From positions 1,171,758-1,235,757 of the forward strand of contig NZ_CTDZ01000009.1 in the NCBI RefSeq assembly GCF_001375555.1: a stretch of DNA of 64,000 nt, in the 5' to 3' direction. Positions 41,992 to 57,878 of this stretch are shown in pieces. The DNA is from Numidum massiliense (GTDB lineage Bacteria > Bacillota > Bacilli > Thermoactinomycetales > Novibacillaceae). The translations under genes and the position numbers were made by a program. Within the stretch, counting starts at the first letter, position 1. Each line of letters begins with the position of its first letter. The notes beneath the pieces are model-generated. The model made no database searches. It saw only the letters and a list, made by a program, of their open reading frames with translations, and had not been told where the DNA came from.

Positions 41992-42253
41992 AACCGATTC
42001 GTAAGGTAGCGTTGAGGTTGCATGCAGCAAGACGATATTGATCATCCCGACGAGCAACAGCAACCAAAGTCACACGATCCCTTCACCTCCTTCTTTTACA
42101 ACGAATAGTTTTCCCCCTTGTACTTACAACATAGCGGAATACTTAGCAAATATTCGACTAGTAGCCTGCGCTCCCTGCTCTTTACTGAATCGGGGGGAAA
42201 CTTTTTTAGCTCCAAATATGGGCTACCTCTGGGGGATCACCTTGCCTATAATA

Positions 42254-42296
42254 AGGGGAATCCCTCATACCGTTAGGAAGGGAAAATCTTTATAAT
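42254..42296 (+). promoter_or_regulatory. promoter with NreC-box-like palindrome upstream of the 96-residue unknown
   Basis: AGGG-GAAT-CCCT (42254-42265) lies upstream of a perfect -10 TATAAT (42291-42296), with no -35 consensus at the usual place. The palindrome centre (42259.5) is 31.5 bp before the -10, a position suited to an activator near -43. The same geometry occurs at 49.2 kb. The start codon (42319) is about 16 nt after the predicted transcription start. The rest of the 327-bp gap from aroH holds nothing else recognisable. Confidence 0.55.
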
Positions 42297-42318: not shown

Positions 42319-42609
42319 ATGCGTGCGTTTTTACAGGTGAGTAACGAACGGACAGCGGCTCGCATTTTGCGTTTTTTACAGTTAGATCCGGAGCAGGCAA
42401 AGCTTACCGATGTGTGTCGGCAGGCGCAGTTTTTTCTCGACACTCTAAAAGAAGAAGCCACCCCCATCTTGTACGGAAAGGTACTCGCCGTTAACGACAT
42501 CGGCTTAACGCTCGAATTTAACGACCGCGTCGCCCGTTACGTCAGCTTTATTCCGTGGCATGCGGTGCACGAATTTAAAATGTCTACTATCTTAAGTTTG
42601 CAAAAATAA
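42319..42609 (+). CDS. unknown 96-residue protein under a predicted NreC-type box
   Basis: No family recognised. The N-terminal half is helical (MRAFLQVSNERTAARILRFL, then DVCRQAQFFLDTLKEE). The C-terminal half looks like a small beta-barrel (LYGKVLAVNDIGLTLEF, RVARYVSFIPWHAV, HEFKM), which by eye recalls Sm/SH3-like folds; that is speculation. The ATG at 42319 has AGGGGGGAAGG upstream; an ATG at 42295 falls inside the predicted -10 and is excluded if that promoter is real. A strong terminator follows, so it is monocistronic. Confidence 0.6.
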   Translation: MRAFLQVSNERTAARILRFLQLDPEQAKLTDVCRQAQFFLDTLKEEATPILYGKVLAVNDIGLTLEFNDRVARYVSFIPWHAVHEFKMSTILSLQK

Positions 42610-42787: not shown

Positions 42788-44284
42788 GTGTTACTGCGTT
42801 ATTTTTATAACGAAAAATTGGCGCACGCGTCGTACCTCGTCGGGTGTCAACAGACGGGGGAAGCGATCGTGATCGATCCGGCGCGGGACGTCACACCGTA
42901 TCAGCGAGTGGCACAAGCGGAAGGTCTGCAAATCGTGGCAGCGACGGAAACGCACATTCACGCTGATTTTGTCTCGGGCGCGCGTGAATTGGCTGAGCAG
43001 TGGCAAGCGAAGCTCTATTTGTCTGCCGAGGGGGGTAAGGATTGGCAGTATCGCTATGTGGGACAACTGGGGCACAGGCAGTGCGGCGGAAGTGACAACT
43101 ACGAGCTGGTACGTGACGGTGATCGCTTTACAGTCGGGAACGTCGCGTTCGACGTGATGCACACGCCCGGGCATACACCGGAAAGCATGTCGCTCTTACT
43201 CACCGACTGCGGTGGGCAGGCGGAGCGGCCGATGGGTATTTTTACTGGCGATTTCGTGTTTGTCGGCGACGTCGGTCGGCCAGATTTGCTAGAAAAAGTA
43301 GGCGGCGCGGCAGGGAGCGCCGTCTCCGGGGCGCGGGCGATGTTTCGTTCGCTGCAAACATTCAAGCAGCTGCCCGATTACGTGCAAGTGTGGCCTGCGC
43401 ACGGTGCCGGTAGTGCCTGCGGAAAGGCGCTTGGGGCTGTACCGTCTTCAACAGTCGGTTACGAGAAATTGTACAACTGGGCCCTTGCGCACACTGACGA
43501 AACAGCGTTTGTCACGGCGTTACTCAGTGGCCAGCCGGAGGCGCCAACATATTTCGCAGCGATGAAACAGGTGAACAAAGATGGGCCGCCATTGTTGAAA
43601 GAGTTACCGCAACCGGAACGGATCCAGACGGGTGAGCGACTGCGCGAGCTACTCCCGTCACGTGCCCGCATCGTCGATACGCGTCCGTGCGACGCGTTCG
43701 CGAAACGGCATGTGGCGGGGACGATCAACATACCGTACAACCGCTCGTTTACGAACTGGGCCGGTTGGTTAATCGACGACACAAGACCGCTTTACTTTTT
43801 AGTTGCTGCTGAAGCTGTCCCTGACATGTTACGCGATTTACGCGCGATAGGTATCGACCGCGTCGCCGGATACATGCATCTCGACGACGCGTTTACCCAA
43901 TGCGCGGACTTATTTAATGAGTCGTACCGCGAAGCGGAACCGGCGGAAATGTGCGAGCCGATCGCCGTAGGCGATGTCACGCTCATCGACGTGCGCAACA
44001 GGGACGAGTGGCAGGAGGGGCACATCGCCGGCGCCCATCATATGATGCTTGGCACATTGCCCGAGGGGCTAGATGAAGTGGATGAACTGATTGAACGAAC
44101 GAGCGGGAAGCCACTCCTGTTGCAGTGCCGCTCGGGAGCCCGTTCCGCGATCGCAGCTAGCATTTTGCAAGCGTATGGCGTGAAAGAGGTCGTTAACTTG
44201 CAAGGTGGCATCGATGACTGGCAAGCGAAGGGATTGCCAGTCGTGCGCCCGTCTGTGCAAAAGTTCCCTTGCGAACGCAAGTAG
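42788..44284 (+). CDS. metallo-beta-lactamase fold protein with two rhodanese domains (persulfide dioxygenase-like)
   Basis: 498 residues. Residues 1-240 form an ETHE1/CstB-like metallo-beta-lactamase domain: THIHADF (His56, His58, Asp60), MHTPGHTPES, FTGDFVFVGDVGRPDL and WPAHGAGSACG, which provide a mononuclear iron site for persulfide oxidation. The first rhodanese domain (about 265-370) has FLVAAEAVPDM where the active Cys should be, so it is inactive. The second (about 385-490) has LLQCRSGARS with the catalytic Cys. Such proteins oxidise or detoxify sulfane sulfur. GTG start after TAGGAGGGTC; monocistronic. Confidence 0.88.
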   Translation: MLLRYFYNEKLAHASYLVGCQQTGEAIVIDPARDVTPYQRVAQAEGLQIVAATETHIHADFVSGARELAEQWQAKLYLSAEGGKDWQYRYVGQLGHRQCGGSDNYELVRDGDRFTVGNVAFDVMHTPGHTPESMSLLLTDCGGQAERPMGIFTGDFVFVGDVGRPDLLEKVGGAAGSAVSGARAMFRSLQTFKQLPDYVQVWPAHGAGSACGKALGAVPSSTVGYEKLYNWALAHTDETAFVTALLSGQPEAPTYFAAMKQVNKDGPPLLKELPQPERIQTGERLRELLPSRARIVDTRPCDAFAKRHVAGTINIPYNRSFTNWAGWLIDDTRPLYFLVAAEAVPDMLRDLRAIGIDRVAGYMHLDDAFTQCADLFNESYREAEPAEMCEPIAVGDVTLIDVRNRDEWQEGHIAGAHHMMLGTLPEGLDEVDELIERTSGKPLLLQCRSGARSAIAASILQAYGVKEVVNLQGGIDDWQAKGLPVVRPSVQKFPCERK

Positions 44285-45762: not shown

Positions 45763-45796
45763 CACGTACAAACATAGGATCACGTACAAACATAGG
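45763..45796. repeat. 16-bp direct repeat after gldA
   Basis: CACGTACAAACATAGG occurs at 45763-45778 and 45781-45796 (period 18), followed by a partial copy AACAAACATA. It lies just past the gldA stop in a 486-bp gap. Confidence 0.7.
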
Positions 45797-45864
45797 GCCA
45801 AACAAACATACGCTATAAATTCGAAACAGGGCGGAATCGCAGGGACGGAAATGTCCTCCCTGTA

Positions 45865-46077: not shown

Positions 46078-46147
46078 GTCGCAGCGAATGGCACGGCGTG
46101 AACGCGACGTGTAATCGTTACAAATTTATTAATGTTTGTCGTCGGCT

Positions 46148-46169
46148 TTGTGAAACATGACATTCACAA
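46148..46169. promoter_or_regulatory. TTGTGAA-N8-TTCACAA inverted repeat upstream of the kinase gene
   Basis: Perfect 7-bp arms TTGTGAA (46148-46154) and TTCACAA (46163-46169) lie 77 bp before the kinase start. The arms equal those of the Rex redox-repressor operator, but the spacer is 8 rather than 4. Fnr-type sites (TGTGA-N6-TCACA) also differ in spacing. A redox-linked operator is possible. Confidence 0.45.
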
Positions 46170-46245
46170 CTTAAACGTTTAGGAAAGTTGTGATACGATA
46201 AATATACACGACATTTGAACGGGCTAAGGGAAAGGAAGACTTGCT

Positions 46246-47379
46246 GTGGAGATTAGTGGAGAGCGTTTACAGCTAAACGGCGAGGATACGCTGCGGGAAG
46301 GGTGGGGTGACGTTTTCACCCGCATGAGTAACCCGTGGAGTCCCTTATTGAACGTGTTTGCATATATGACCGACGGCATCCTTATTATGAACCACTTCCG
46401 ACAAATCGTCGGGATCAACCGCGCAGCAGAAGAGATGTTAGGTTGGACGAACGAAGACTTACTTAATAGCGTCGCCTTTTGCCAATTGTGCGACGGGGTT
46501 GTGTCGAATCGGGAAGACACGCTGGCGACGTGCTTAAACTGCCAGGTGTTTACAGAGAATTCCCCGTACGTAGAACTGGTACTTAAGGCTAAGGATGGGC
46601 GCGAAGTGACGGTGACGGCGAGTAGTACAATTATGGCAGCCACGGCCGACGTACCAGCTTGTACGATCGTCGCGATCCGCGATATTTCGGCACAAAAGCG
46701 GCAGGCGAAAGCGCGCATGTCTCGTCTGTTATCTAATAAAATGATGCAAACGCTCGAAGAGGAACGGAAGCGCGTCTCGAAAGAGTTACACGACGGGATC
46801 GGACAAAACGTGTTTAGTATGCAAATGATGTTAGATCTGCTACTCTGCCAATTAGACGGTCACCCGTCAGCTGAAATGTGTGGCAACGTGCGGCAGATGA
46901 CGGCGCAAGTGCTCGAAGAAGTACGCAATTTATCGGTCGAACTGCGGCCGTCCATTCTCGACGATTTAGGGTTAATACCGGCGATTCGCTCAACTGTGAA
47001 GCGAATGGAAGCAGCTGCTCCCTTCGAAATGACGTTTACGTATAACCGCAACCGCCGATTGTCAGCCGAGCGAGAGTTGGCGCTGTACCGCATTTTTCAA
47101 GAAGCACTCAATAACGCGTTGAAGTATTCCGAGGCAGAGCACTTCCAAGTCGATGTCTTGTTTGAAGAAGGAGATTGTGCGCCTGTCATGCTAACGGTGA
47201 TCGATGACGGAAAAGGTTTCCTCCCCGATCAGCTCGGGGAAAGCGGACGCGGCTTAGGTCTGTTTAGTATGCGGGAACGAGTGGCCCAATTGAACGGAAA
47301 AATACATATCGACTCACGTGTGGGTGAGGGGACTCACATCCGCGTATGGCTGCCACAAGGAGGAGAGAACTGTGAATAA
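46246..47379 (+). CDS. NreB-like sensor histidine kinase with Cys4 PAS domain
   Basis: This 377-residue soluble kinase has no membrane segment. An N-terminal PAS domain carries four cysteines as C-x2-C-x13-C-x2-C (Cys79, 82, 96, 99), the arrangement expected for an oxygen-labile [4Fe-4S] cluster as in staphylococcal NreB. The HisKA_3 domain has ELHDGIGQN with His182, and the ATPase domain has FQEALNNALKYSEA, DDGKGF and GLGLFSMRER. GTG start after AAAGGAAG. It overlaps the response-regulator gene by 8 bp, so the pair is translated together. Predicted to signal low oxygen. Confidence 0.88.
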   Translation: MEISGERLQLNGEDTLREGWGDVFTRMSNPWSPLLNVFAYMTDGILIMNHFRQIVGINRAAEEMLGWTNEDLLNSVAFCQLCDGVVSNREDTLATCLNCQVFTENSPYVELVLKAKDGREVTVTASSTIMAATADVPACTIVAIRDISAQKRQAKARMSRLLSNKMMQTLEEERKRVSKELHDGIGQNVFSMQMMLDLLLCQLDGHPSAEMCGNVRQMTAQVLEEVRNLSVELRPSILDDLGLIPAIRSTVKRMEAAAPFEMTFTYNRNRRLSAERELALYRIFQEALNNALKYSEAEHFQVDVLFEEGDCAPVMLTVIDDGKGFLPDQLGESGRGLGLFSMRERVAQLNGKIHIDSRVGEGTHIRVWLPQGGENCE

Positions 47380-48055
47380 GATCCGCGTGTTAATCGCCGA
47401 CGATCATGCGATCGTACGCTCCGGCGTCAACATGTTACTGTCATCGCAACCTGACATTGTCGTCGTCGGCGAAGCGAGCGATGGGCGGGAAGCGGTGCAG
47501 AAGGCGCTAGAGTTGCAACCGGATGTCGTGATGATGGATTTAAGTATGCCGCCGGGCCTCGACGGCATTGCGGCGACGACCGAACTGAAAAAAGAGGCAC
47601 CCGACATACACGTCCTCGTATTGACGATGTACGACGACGAAGAGTATTTGTTTCGCGTATTAAATGCAGGGGCGTCGGGATACATTATAAAAAACGCACA
47701 CGACTCGGAGCTCGTCGCTGCCGTTCGCGCCGTTTACGAAGGGCAGGCGTACTTGTACCCGACAGCGGCTAAACGATTAGTGGAGAGCTTTCTCCACCGG
47801 GTCGAAGAAGGGGAAAACGTCGATATTTACCACCTGCTGACAGACCGCGAACGGGAAGTACTCACCTTGATCGCTAAAGGTTACGGCAATAAGGAAATGG
47901 CGGAACAACTGTTTATTAGTGTGAAGACGGTGGAGAGCCACAAAGCGCGCGTCATGAATAAACTCGGCTTGTACACGCGCCACGAACTCGTCGATTACGC
48001 CATCAGAAAAGGATTGCTCGATTTAGAATACAGTCGCGAGGGGACGATTAGCTAA
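47372..48055 (+). CDS. NreC-like response regulator (NarL/LuxR type)
   Basis: This 227-residue regulator has a receiver domain with acidic pair ADDH, phospho-acceptor Asp56 (VVMMDLSMP), conserved Thr/Lys region (LTMYDDEEY, YIIKNAHDSE), and a C-terminal LuxR helix-turn-helix (LTDREREVLTLIAKGYGNKE with SVKTVESHKARVMNKLGL). The GTG at 47372 has AGGAGGAGAG upstream and overlaps the kinase stop. Related NreC proteins bind TAGGGN4CCCTA boxes; similar boxes occur here at 42254 and 49207-49241. Confidence 0.88.
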   Translation: MNKIRVLIADDHAIVRSGVNMLLSSQPDIVVVGEASDGREAVQKALELQPDVVMMDLSMPPGLDGIAATTELKKEAPDIHVLVLTMYDDEEYLFRVLNAGASGYIIKNAHDSELVAAVRAVYEGQAYLYPTAAKRLVESFLHRVEEGENVDIYHLLTDREREVLTLIAKGYGNKEMAEQLFISVKTVESHKARVMNKLGLYTRHELVDYAIRKGLLDLEYSREGTIS

Positions 48056-48914: not shown

Positions 48915-49206
48915 TAGTATTCTCTCCTCTATTTGCGCGATTTGCGCGCACCGTATGTGCGCGTCCGCTTTTTTATCGTATAACACCTCCTTCATTATAA
49001 GCGAAACAAGGTGCGCGTTGTCTATGACACACGTCACAGAGGTGAAAAAACGCGTACAATACGTTTACAAGCCAAACAAAGCGTTCACGATGACGGGCAA
49101 ACGGTTGTAAAATTTATGCAATAAAACGGGCTAAATCAATCAAACCGCAACACATAACATCACTCGTTAACAAACAATCACAGCAATTTATACTAGAAAT
49201 TAGAGT

Positions 49207-49272
49207 TAGGGAAATCCCCGCATGTTATAAGGGGATTCCCCGATAGGCACCTGGCGTCCATTCACTTATGAT
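49207..49272 (+). promoter_or_regulatory. promoter with two NreC-box-like palindromes before the oxidase operon
   Basis: Box 1 is TAGGG-AAAT-CCCC (49207-49219), box 2 is AGGG-GATT-CCCC (49230-49241); their centres are 22 bp apart, two helical turns. A -10 TATGAT (49267-49272) starts 31.5 bp after the centre of box 2, and no -35 is visible. The predicted start site is about 20 nt before the first oxidase gene. Box sequence and spacing match the promoter at 42254-42296. The rest of the 384-bp divergent gap toward ywiC shows no other gene. Confidence 0.6.
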
Positions 49273-49298
49273 GAAGCTAAACATCAGGAGGTGAGAGC

Positions 49299-49472
49299 AT
49301 GGCGGAATTATCGCGAAGGGATGAAACGGTCCGTACAGAGCGCGCACATACGCAACAGACGGAGGAAGAGGAACATTCGTTCAAAGGCACGTTCGTCTCC
49401 GTGTTAATGGTCGGTGGCGTCATCATTGTCTCTTGGTTTGCCGTGTTCTTTCTATTTTTGTCACGTCAGTAG
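49299..49472 (+). CDS. small cytochrome oxidase subunit (subunit IIa/CbaD-like), 57 residues
   Basis: 57 residues: a charged N-terminal part (AELSRRDETVRTERAHTQQT, EEEEHSFKG) and one C-terminal membrane span (VSVLMVGGVIIVSWFAVFFLF). This layout and the position directly before subunit II match the small subunit IIa of ba3-type oxidases. ATG after CAGGAGGTGAGA; 18 bp before the next gene. It is the first gene after the boxed promoter. Confidence 0.75.
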   Translation: MAELSRRDETVRTERAHTQQTEEEEHSFKGTFVSVLMVGGVIIVSWFAVFFLFLSRQ

Positions 49473-49980: not shown

Positions 49981-51651
49981 ATGAGAGACTCAGTACAGTC
50001 GAGTGAGCAGTTTCAAGGGTTTGAACGTCAGGACGCGCGCCTCGGTAGCGCACACCTCGTCGTCGCCTTCACTGCATTGTTAATCGGCGGCATCTGTGGT
50101 TTATTGCAAGCGCTAGACCAAGGCGGAATGGTCAATATGCCGTCCTGGATCGGCTACTACCAGTTGTTGACCGCTCACGGCGTCTTGTTAGCACTCGTAA
50201 CGACGACATTTTTCATTATCGGTTTTATTTACGCCGGATTAGCGCGCGTTTTAGGAGGAAAGCTCATCCCAGCGACGCGGCGTTACGGCTGGATCGGCTT
50301 CGTTTTAATGACGGTCGGCACGATCATGGCGACGGTGATGATTCTCGCGAACAAAGCGACGGTATTGTACACGTTTTACGCCCCGATGCAGGCGTCGCCG
50401 TGGTTTTACATCGGCTTGGCCCTACTTGTCGTCGGATCGTGGAGTAGTGGCATCGGCGTGTTTTTGAACTATCGGCATTATCGCCACACGCATCCAGGTA
50501 AAACGTCTCCCTTGCTTTCATTTATGGCTGTGGCGACGTTCATTATGTGGTTCGTCGCTTCCATTGGCGTGGCGATCGAAGTGGTCGTACAACTTATCCC
50601 GTGGTCGTTCGGTTGGGTTGAAACGGTTAACGTCTTGCTCAGTCGTACGCTGTTCTGGTTTTTCGGTCACCCGCTCGTCTATTTTTGGTTGTTGCCGGCG
50701 TACATGATTTGGTACGTCTGTCTCCCCAAAATTGTCGGCGGCAAAATTTTCAGTGACGCGTTGGCACGGCTCGCGTTCGTATTGTTCATTATGTTTTCCA
50801 TTCCGGTCGGTTTTCACCACCAGCTAACTGAACCGGGTGTGGCACAAGGTTGGAAGTTCCTGCAAGTGTCTCTGACGATGGCCGTTGTCGTGCCGTCGCT
50901 AATGACCGCCTTTTCGATGTTCGCGACGTTCGAAAGTGTCGGACGGGCAAAAGGGGCGCGTGGCCTATTCGGTTGGTTGAAGGTGTTGCCGTGGAACGAT
51001 GTGCGCTTCTTGGCGCCGTTTATCGCGATGCTCCTGTTTATTCCCGGGGGTGCCGGCGGAATTATTAACGCTAGTAACCAGATGAACCAAGTCGTGCACA
51101 ACACGATGTTCATTACCGGGCACTTCCACTTAGCAGTCGCTACGACGGTACTGCTCACATTTTTCGGAGCAGCTTACTGGCTCATTCCGGCGCTGACAAA
51201 CCGCCGCTTGACGCCAGCGATCAACAAGCTCGGCATCGTGCAGACGATCTTGTGGACGGTCGGGATGTTGATCATGTCCGGGGCGATGCACATCGTCGGC
51301 TTACTCGGGGCACCGCGGCGCACGTCGTTTACCGATTACCAAGGATCCGCTGTCGCGGCCGACTGGGTACCGTACAAAATAGCGATGGGCGTTGGCGGAG
51401 CGATTCTGTTCGTCGCTATCATCTTGATGGTGTACATCGTTATTCACCTGTTTTTGTTTGCGCCGAAAGGAAAGACCGACTTTGTCGTCAGTGAAGTCGC
51501 AGAAGGCGCGCAAAAGACGCCGATGTGGTTGGAACACTGGCCCGTTTGGGTTGGTCTGATCGCAACGTTAATCCTCATTGCGTATGTCAGTCCAGTCATC
51601 CACATTATTGAACAATCGCCGCCAGGCTCGCTCCCGTTTGTGACGTGGTAA
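49981..51651 (+). CDS. cbaA: cytochrome c oxidase subunit I, b(a/o)3 type
   Basis: 556 residues, about 13 membrane spans. Haem and CuB ligands are seen in LTAHGVLLAL, WFFGHPLVYFWLLPAYM (CuB His and Tyr-region), PVGFHHQL and ITGHFHLAVAT. The K-channel pattern and absence of the D-channel Glu motif place it in the B family of haem-copper oxidases, which have high oxygen affinity. It pumps protons while reducing oxygen. ATG after GGAGGGAAGAGG. Together with cbaB and the small subunit it forms one operon behind the boxed promoter. Confidence 0.93.
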   Translation: MRDSVQSSEQFQGFERQDARLGSAHLVVAFTALLIGGICGLLQALDQGGMVNMPSWIGYYQLLTAHGVLLALVTTTFFIIGFIYAGLARVLGGKLIPATRRYGWIGFVLMTVGTIMATVMILANKATVLYTFYAPMQASPWFYIGLALLVVGSWSSGIGVFLNYRHYRHTHPGKTSPLLSFMAVATFIMWFVASIGVAIEVVVQLIPWSFGWVETVNVLLSRTLFWFFGHPLVYFWLLPAYMIWYVCLPKIVGGKIFSDALARLAFVLFIMFSIPVGFHHQLTEPGVAQGWKFLQVSLTMAVVVPSLMTAFSMFATFESVGRAKGARGLFGWLKVLPWNDVRFLAPFIAMLLFIPGGAGGIINASNQMNQVVHNTMFITGHFHLAVATTVLLTFFGAAYWLIPALTNRRLTPAINKLGIVQTILWTVGMLIMSGAMHIVGLLGAPRRTSFTDYQGSAVAADWVPYKIAMGVGGAILFVAIILMVYIVIHLFLFAPKGKTDFVVSEVAEGAQKTPMWLEHWPVWVGLIATLILIAYVSPVIHIIEQSPPGSLPFVTW

Positions 51652-57482: not shown

Positions 57483-57878
57483 GTGCCGACGGCGGAAGTT
57501 CTCCAGGACGCAAAAGTGCTTGTCATTCCATTGCGCGATTTTAACGAGTTGCTGTTGCAATACCCACACACGGCGATCAACTTAATGCACACAATGGAGC
57601 AAAAAATTGTAGAATTGCAAGCGCGGTTGCAAAAATTAATCGCTGGAGACGTACAGCGGCGCGTCGTTCATTTTTTAACGTATTTAGCGAAGGAATTTGG
57701 TGAAAAAACTGCTGTAGGTACTATGATCGACGTGCCGGTGACGAACGAAGATATCGCCAATGTCGTCGGGACGTCGCGCGAGTCGGTCAATCGCATCTTA
57801 AACCATTTGAAAAGAGAGCATCTACTTGACATTGGGCGGCAAAAAATGTGTATTTACGATATCGAGGCGCTGCAGTAA
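57483..57878 (+). pseudogene. Crp/Fnr-family regulator lacking its sensor barrel
   Basis: 131 residues starting in the last strand of the effector domain (PTAEVLQDAKVLVIPLRDF), then the long dimer helix (MHTMEQKIVELQARLQKL) and a complete winged helix (VPVTNEDIANVVGTSRESVN, RILNHLKREHLLDIG). A full Crp/Fnr protein has about 100 more N-terminal residues. The frame is open upstream to within the Nudix gene but shows no barrel sequence, and the GTG has no ribosome site. So a deletion has removed the sensor half. It may be dead or act as a constitutive DNA-binding fragment. Confidence 0.7.

Follow-up and report, generated by a model that had tools for sequence, protein, structure and literature searches.

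The window (the whole stretch of DNA that was analysed, 64,000 nucleotides) contains a sensor kinase gene and a response regulator gene and, further along the same strand, the operon of a ba3-type cytochrome oxidase. The features of the locus are as follows:

46246..47379, + strand: soluble sensor kinase resembling NreB, with PAS, HisKA_3 and HATPase_c domains; GTG start, 377 aa
46480..46542, + strand: codons of Cys79 to Cys99, C-x2-C-x13-C-x2-C motif in the PAS domain
46789..46791, + strand: His182, predicted phospho-acceptor (ELHDG, HisKA_3 match)
47372..48055, + strand: NreC-like response regulator (Response_reg + GerE); GTG start, 227 aa
48151..48187, + strand: terminator-like hairpin with T-run, 3' of the regulator gene
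49206..49221, + strand: NreC-type box, upstream copy, TTAGGGAAATCCCCGC; candidate site
49228..49243, + strand: NreC-type box, downstream copy, TAAGGGGATTCCCCGA, 22 bp from the first; candidate site
49244..49272, + strand: promoter-like TAGGCA-17-TATGAT, directly 3' of the second box; layout common to genome G001
49299..49472, + strand: CoxIIa-like small one-span subunit, first gene of the oxidase operon; 57 aa
49491..49958, + strand: cbaB, oxidase subunit II (CuA domain)
49981..51651, + strand: cbaA, subunit I of the ba3-type oxidase; its GHPLVY motif carries the cross-link tyrosine

The Pfam matches of the kinase are a PAS domain, HisKA_3 (residues 173-237) and HATPase_c (277-371), which is the soluble arrangement with an N-terminal PAS domain found in canonical NreB. 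No transmembrane segment is detected, as the 19-residue Kyte-Doolittle maximum is 1.39, compared with 3.05 for CbaA. The cysteines of the PAS motif are residues 79, 82, 96 and 99, and further cysteines are located at 139, 201, 212, 311 and 376. The Pfam matches, hydropathy and residue positions confirm the original prediction of a soluble kinase with a C-x2-C-x13-C-x2-C PAS domain and a NarL-type regulator. The overlap of the two genes that it gave is also exact at 8 bp, with the regulator beginning at the GTG at 47372; the open reading frame listed from 47318 is merely a longer mechanical start. Because a terminator-like hairpin lies 3' of the regulator gene, the pair is probably a separate transcription unit.

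An alignment of the window kinase with its homologues from G001 and G054 reveals that the four motif cysteines are invariant, and four cysteines occupy the equivalent place in 32 further homologues; on account of this conservation, a chance occurrence of the motif is rejected. The central spacing, for which a comparison with known NreB sequences had been advised, is 13 residues in the window kinase versus 11 in every canonical NreB-type kinase aligned (C-x2-C-x11-C-x2-C in 32/32, from other families). G001 is the sole same-family relative compared, and its kinase, 58% identical to that of the window, also has a longer loop with all four cysteines kept, in the form C-x3-C-x14-C-x2-C (3-14-2, beside 2-13-2 in the window). 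At another locus (L115), narGHJI, a 156-aa open reading frame, nreB, nreC and narK stand in an apparently classical order and the NreB spacing is x11, which is therefore the spacing of nar-linked NreB. An AlphaFold model of the kinase from a three-row alignment is poor (mean pLDDT 51.6), with a better PAS core and a disordered cysteine loop (residues 85-95).

Staphylococcal NreB holds a [4Fe-4S] cluster in its four-cysteine PAS domain, and the kinase is active without oxygen (PMC4601167). By analogy, the four PAS cysteines of the window kinase would hold an oxygen-labile Fe-S cluster. Alternatively, the cysteines might bind zinc or form a thiol/disulfide switch with no Fe-S cluster, the wiring to the oxidase described below being unchanged. 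The two family members differ in spacing (2-13-2, 3-14-2), a difference that would be tolerable for a zinc site or for disulfides, and WalK is a known zinc-binding PAS kinase (PMC6624279). However, all four cysteines align with relatives whose staphylococcal member carries [4Fe-4S], and all four are retained in both stretched members, the window kinase and that of G001; we regard this alternative as quite unlikely. With an Fe-S cluster as the preferred reading, the loop of x13 (x14 together with C-x3-C) could conceivably tune cluster stability toward a microaerobic rather than an anoxic set point, which would suit a low-oxygen oxidase better than an anaerobic reductase, a suggestion that we hold as possible but doubtful.

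The pair was placed with two quick trees. In the tree of the kinase alone it is unplaced (support 12), and a join with the sulfur clade is possible there. In the tree of the kinase core plus regulator, the pair is an early branch within the nar/cba clade of 50 rows (support 100), outside the sulfur clades, its LuxR-type regulator belonging to the NreC clade of nar/cba systems. The regulator is 61-71% identical to those of the cba group versus 38-49% to the sulfur-linked ones. The proposed kinship with NreB is thus borne out by four aligned cysteines and by a position in the NreBC (nar/cba) clade. A search of genome contigs yields mainly distant kinases that have the catalytic half alone in common with the window kinase.

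The trees and identities also bear on a different signal for the kinase. It might sense sulfide or sulfane sulfur and shield respiration from sulfide, as does NreB of Bacillus licheniformis, in which NreBC responds to sulfide and controls sqr-pdo (PMC9918477). In addition to this precedent and the join allowed by the kinase-only tree, a metallo-beta-lactamase/rhodanese gene (42788-44284) lies 2 kb 5' of the kinase gene, and G001 has genes for DsrE, a rhodanese and a CstR-like protein ahead of the oxidase. The overall architecture and a homologous kinase core are shared with the B. licheniformis system, but its persulfide-linked relatives have three cysteines, a distant regulator and oxidase operons without the box described below. 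Three-cysteine kinases stand beside sulfur genes in 20/23 loci, whereas the window kinase has four cysteines and falls in a separate clade, even though sulfur genes are nearby; the regulator identities, the support of 100 for the separation and the missing box in genomes with three-cysteine kinases only point the same way. Sulfide sensing is improbable, and it keeps some weight because sulfur genes lie near the pair in both the window and G001.

Neighbourhoods were gathered for about 80 homologues, with linkage counted within 9 kb. Among the 48 canonical four-cysteine kinase loci, 13 are nar-linked, 26 are cbaAB-linked and 9 are neither; by the coordinates of a separate CbaA search, two of these nine (G191, G222) have CbaA within about 5 kb, and two more (G373, G389) have it at about 12 kb. 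The window and G001 also show the kinase-cbaAB linkage, and the linkage of NreBC to a ba3 oxidase operon is found repeatedly, across eight or more bacterial genera. Tests of 27 cba-linked genomes find narG missing (none over the cut-off) in 26.

Oxidases of the ba3 type are known as a family for high affinity. The motif GHPLVY, with the cross-link tyrosine of oxygen-reducing oxidases, is present in the window CbaA and in every complete linked CbaA. CuA-type NO reductases have an asparagine at this position (PMC3475470), and a reading of CbaA as an NO reductase is rejected because the tyrosine is present. G001 contains a second ba3 subunit I gene (L104:7472-9235), broken by an in-frame TAG, which lies near a sulfur gene cluster and reads GHALVY.

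Two NreC-type boxes stand in tandem before the oxidase operon, and the second (49228-49243) abuts the promoter-like sequence, a layout that is identical in G001. If transcription starts near 49279, the box centres fall near -65 and -43, which would be an activator-type position. The core GGGN4CCC occurs within 350 bp 5' of 21/22 CbaB genes versus 106/1054 other open reading frames. Of 35 cba upstream regions from genomes in which the kinase gene lies close to the operon, 33 (8/8 genera) have the full box (T, A/C/T, A/G, GGGN4CCC, C/T/G, N, A) and 2 do not. It is found in 0/48 cba upstream regions from genomes of 36 genera in which no kinase was detected, in 0/6 of genomes with three-cysteine kinases only and in 0/4 second cba copies. 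The co-occurrence of box and kinase has a genus-level Fisher p of 6e-9, which is the fairer figure because the pattern was fixed after the data had been seen and a single genus dominates the sample. Within genus g69, the kinase-bearing member has tandem boxes and two members without the kinase have none. In G054 and G091, the kinase is in a nar cluster, yet the box is at a remote cba operon; the box is missing at cba in 8/10 genomes with an unlinked four-cysteine kinase.

In the window's own genome, the box pattern is matched perfectly at a single site, which together with a neighbour that has one mismatch forms the tandem pair before cba. The pattern TNRGGGNNNTCCCYGA has two sites per genome in this genome and in G001, one in each at cba. 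No box is present upstream of the window's own nreBC, in contrast to several relatives. The pattern TWGGGN4CCCWA, which is reportedly the staphylococcal NreC site, was rejected as a stand-alone predictor: it has 32 matches in the window versus 48 expected by chance and is therefore uninformative alone. A third NreC-type box, TAAGGGGAATCCCTCA (42252-42267, matrix score 17.0), is located 52 bp before a small open reading frame (42319-42609, 96 aa, starting MRAFLQVSNERTAARIL), which in turn lies 5' of the metallo-beta-lactamase/rhodanese gene; this box possibly marks a second target of the regulator.

The pair could also be an ordinary NreBC that runs nitrate respiration, with the adjacent oxidase incidental. 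The original prediction saw no nitrate reductase in view, which holds for the window and fails for the genome. Its argument for oxidase control from the absence of nitrate reductase falls, since a complete narGHJI lies 640 kb from the kinase pair (C9:1859262). Additionally, moa genes for molybdenum cofactor adjoin the region of the pair, and the close homologues with canonical spacing in G054 and G091 are inside nar clusters. However, no NreC-type box occurs upstream of the genome's own narG, where an FNR-type site, TGTGAAGAGCTTCACA, is found instead, and the box is located at cba. The gene before narG encodes a Crp/FNR-type protein ending CENCPAVYCSIE, which we take to resemble the C-terminal cluster motif of Bacillus subtilis FNR. 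The B. subtilis protein has a C-terminal cluster and controls narGHJI (PMC8139620). A separate regulator of FNR type, whose gene stands immediately 5' of narG, probably governs nitrate respiration in this genome. In G001, no narG is found, and the pair, the oxidase and the box are kept. A search with one model (GAF_2) finds no NreA partner in the genome; the sole GAF_2 protein is unlinked to the pair and presumably resembles free-methionine-sulfoxide reductase. We consider control of nitrate respiration by the pair very unlikely.

In the window, the number of FNR-type sites matches chance expectation (21 observed, 22 expected). A Crp/FNR-like gene (57483-57878) is missing the start of its cyclic-nucleotide-binding-like domain and looks truncated, since the upstream reading frame supplies no missing domain part. 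About 30 kb from the start of the narG region, and 5' of the FNR-narGHJI region, two open reading frames resembling cytochrome bd oxidase subunits (L120:9011-11489) have ABC-transporter-like (cydDC-like) frames next to them, as identified by eye.

The wiring of the kinase to the oxidase rests on the gene linkage, the co-occurrence of box and kinase, and the boxless narG. We put the probability at roughly 0.66 that the pair is a branch of NreBC with stretched cysteine spacing, wired to the ba3-type oxidase as a low-oxygen switch. When oxygen is scarce, the oxygen-labile cluster would be intact on the four PAS cysteines, and the kinase, as expected from its family, would phosphorylate itself at H182 and pass the phosphate to the NreC-like regulator. 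The regulator would then bind the tandem GGGN4CCC palindromes (49206-49243) and presumably activate, rather than repress, the promoter before coxIIa-cbaB-cbaA; air would destroy the cluster, and the cba operon would fall back. The activity of staphylococcal NreB without oxygen (PMC4601167) fits an oxidase used at scarce oxygen. The cysteine spacing, unlike that of all canonical relatives aligned, speaks against this circuit, as do the boxless operons (2/35 linked ones, and cba in 8/10 genomes with an unlinked four-cysteine kinase) and the boxless region 5' of the window's own nreBC. The original prediction of oxidase rather than nitrate control is supported by the linkage, by the box at the cba promoter and by the missing narG in most linked genomes, in place of the argument that failed.

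In staphylococci, NreBC is the known anaerobic switch for nitrate respiration. The systems of Staphylococcus carnosus and S. aureus share with the window a soluble four-cysteine PAS kinase, a HisKA_3 core, a LuxR-type partner and a palindromic target of the GGGN4CCC type. The window pair differs in its loop (13 versus 11), in that NreA was not found and in its location away from nar. The target of phosphorylated NreC in staphylococci is a GC-rich palindrome, present at nar, nir and narT (PMC8139620), whereas the window box is at the ba3 oxidase. AirSR of S. aureus includes a [2Fe-2S] kinase that answers oxygen (PMC4601167) and is comparable as an Fe-S kinase, given the putative cluster here, but its cysteine motif is C-x7-C-x-C-x17-C. 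The ba3-type CbaAB of Thermus and of Bacillus/Geobacillus (PMC3475470) is alike in oxidase type, cross-link tyrosine and CuA subunit II; the literature search found no NreBC-type regulator described for it. No paper that links NreBC to a ba3-type oxidase emerged from the search, a result that does not prove novelty because most subscription papers were outside its reach.

The data indicate that an NreBC module drives an oxygen-consuming oxidase in many Gram-positive bacteria, and with the DNA site named, the claim of oxidase control is directly testable. Such control would give ba3-type oxidases a regulator, of which the literature search found none described, and would reveal how a sensor family whose cysteine chemistry varies was rewired among nitrate, oxygen and sulfide respiration genes.

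Located 5' of the kinase gene (46145-46193) are TTGTGAAACATGACATTCACAA and an inverted repeat with perfect 9-bp arms, TCACAACTT/AAGTTGTGA (46164-46193). Their spacing is that of neither an FNR nor a Rex site, and the nreBC promoter may have a regulator of its own. Short direct repeats are also present 3' of gldA (45763-45810), with two copies of CACGTACAAACATAGG at 18-bp spacing and three copies of ACAAACATA.
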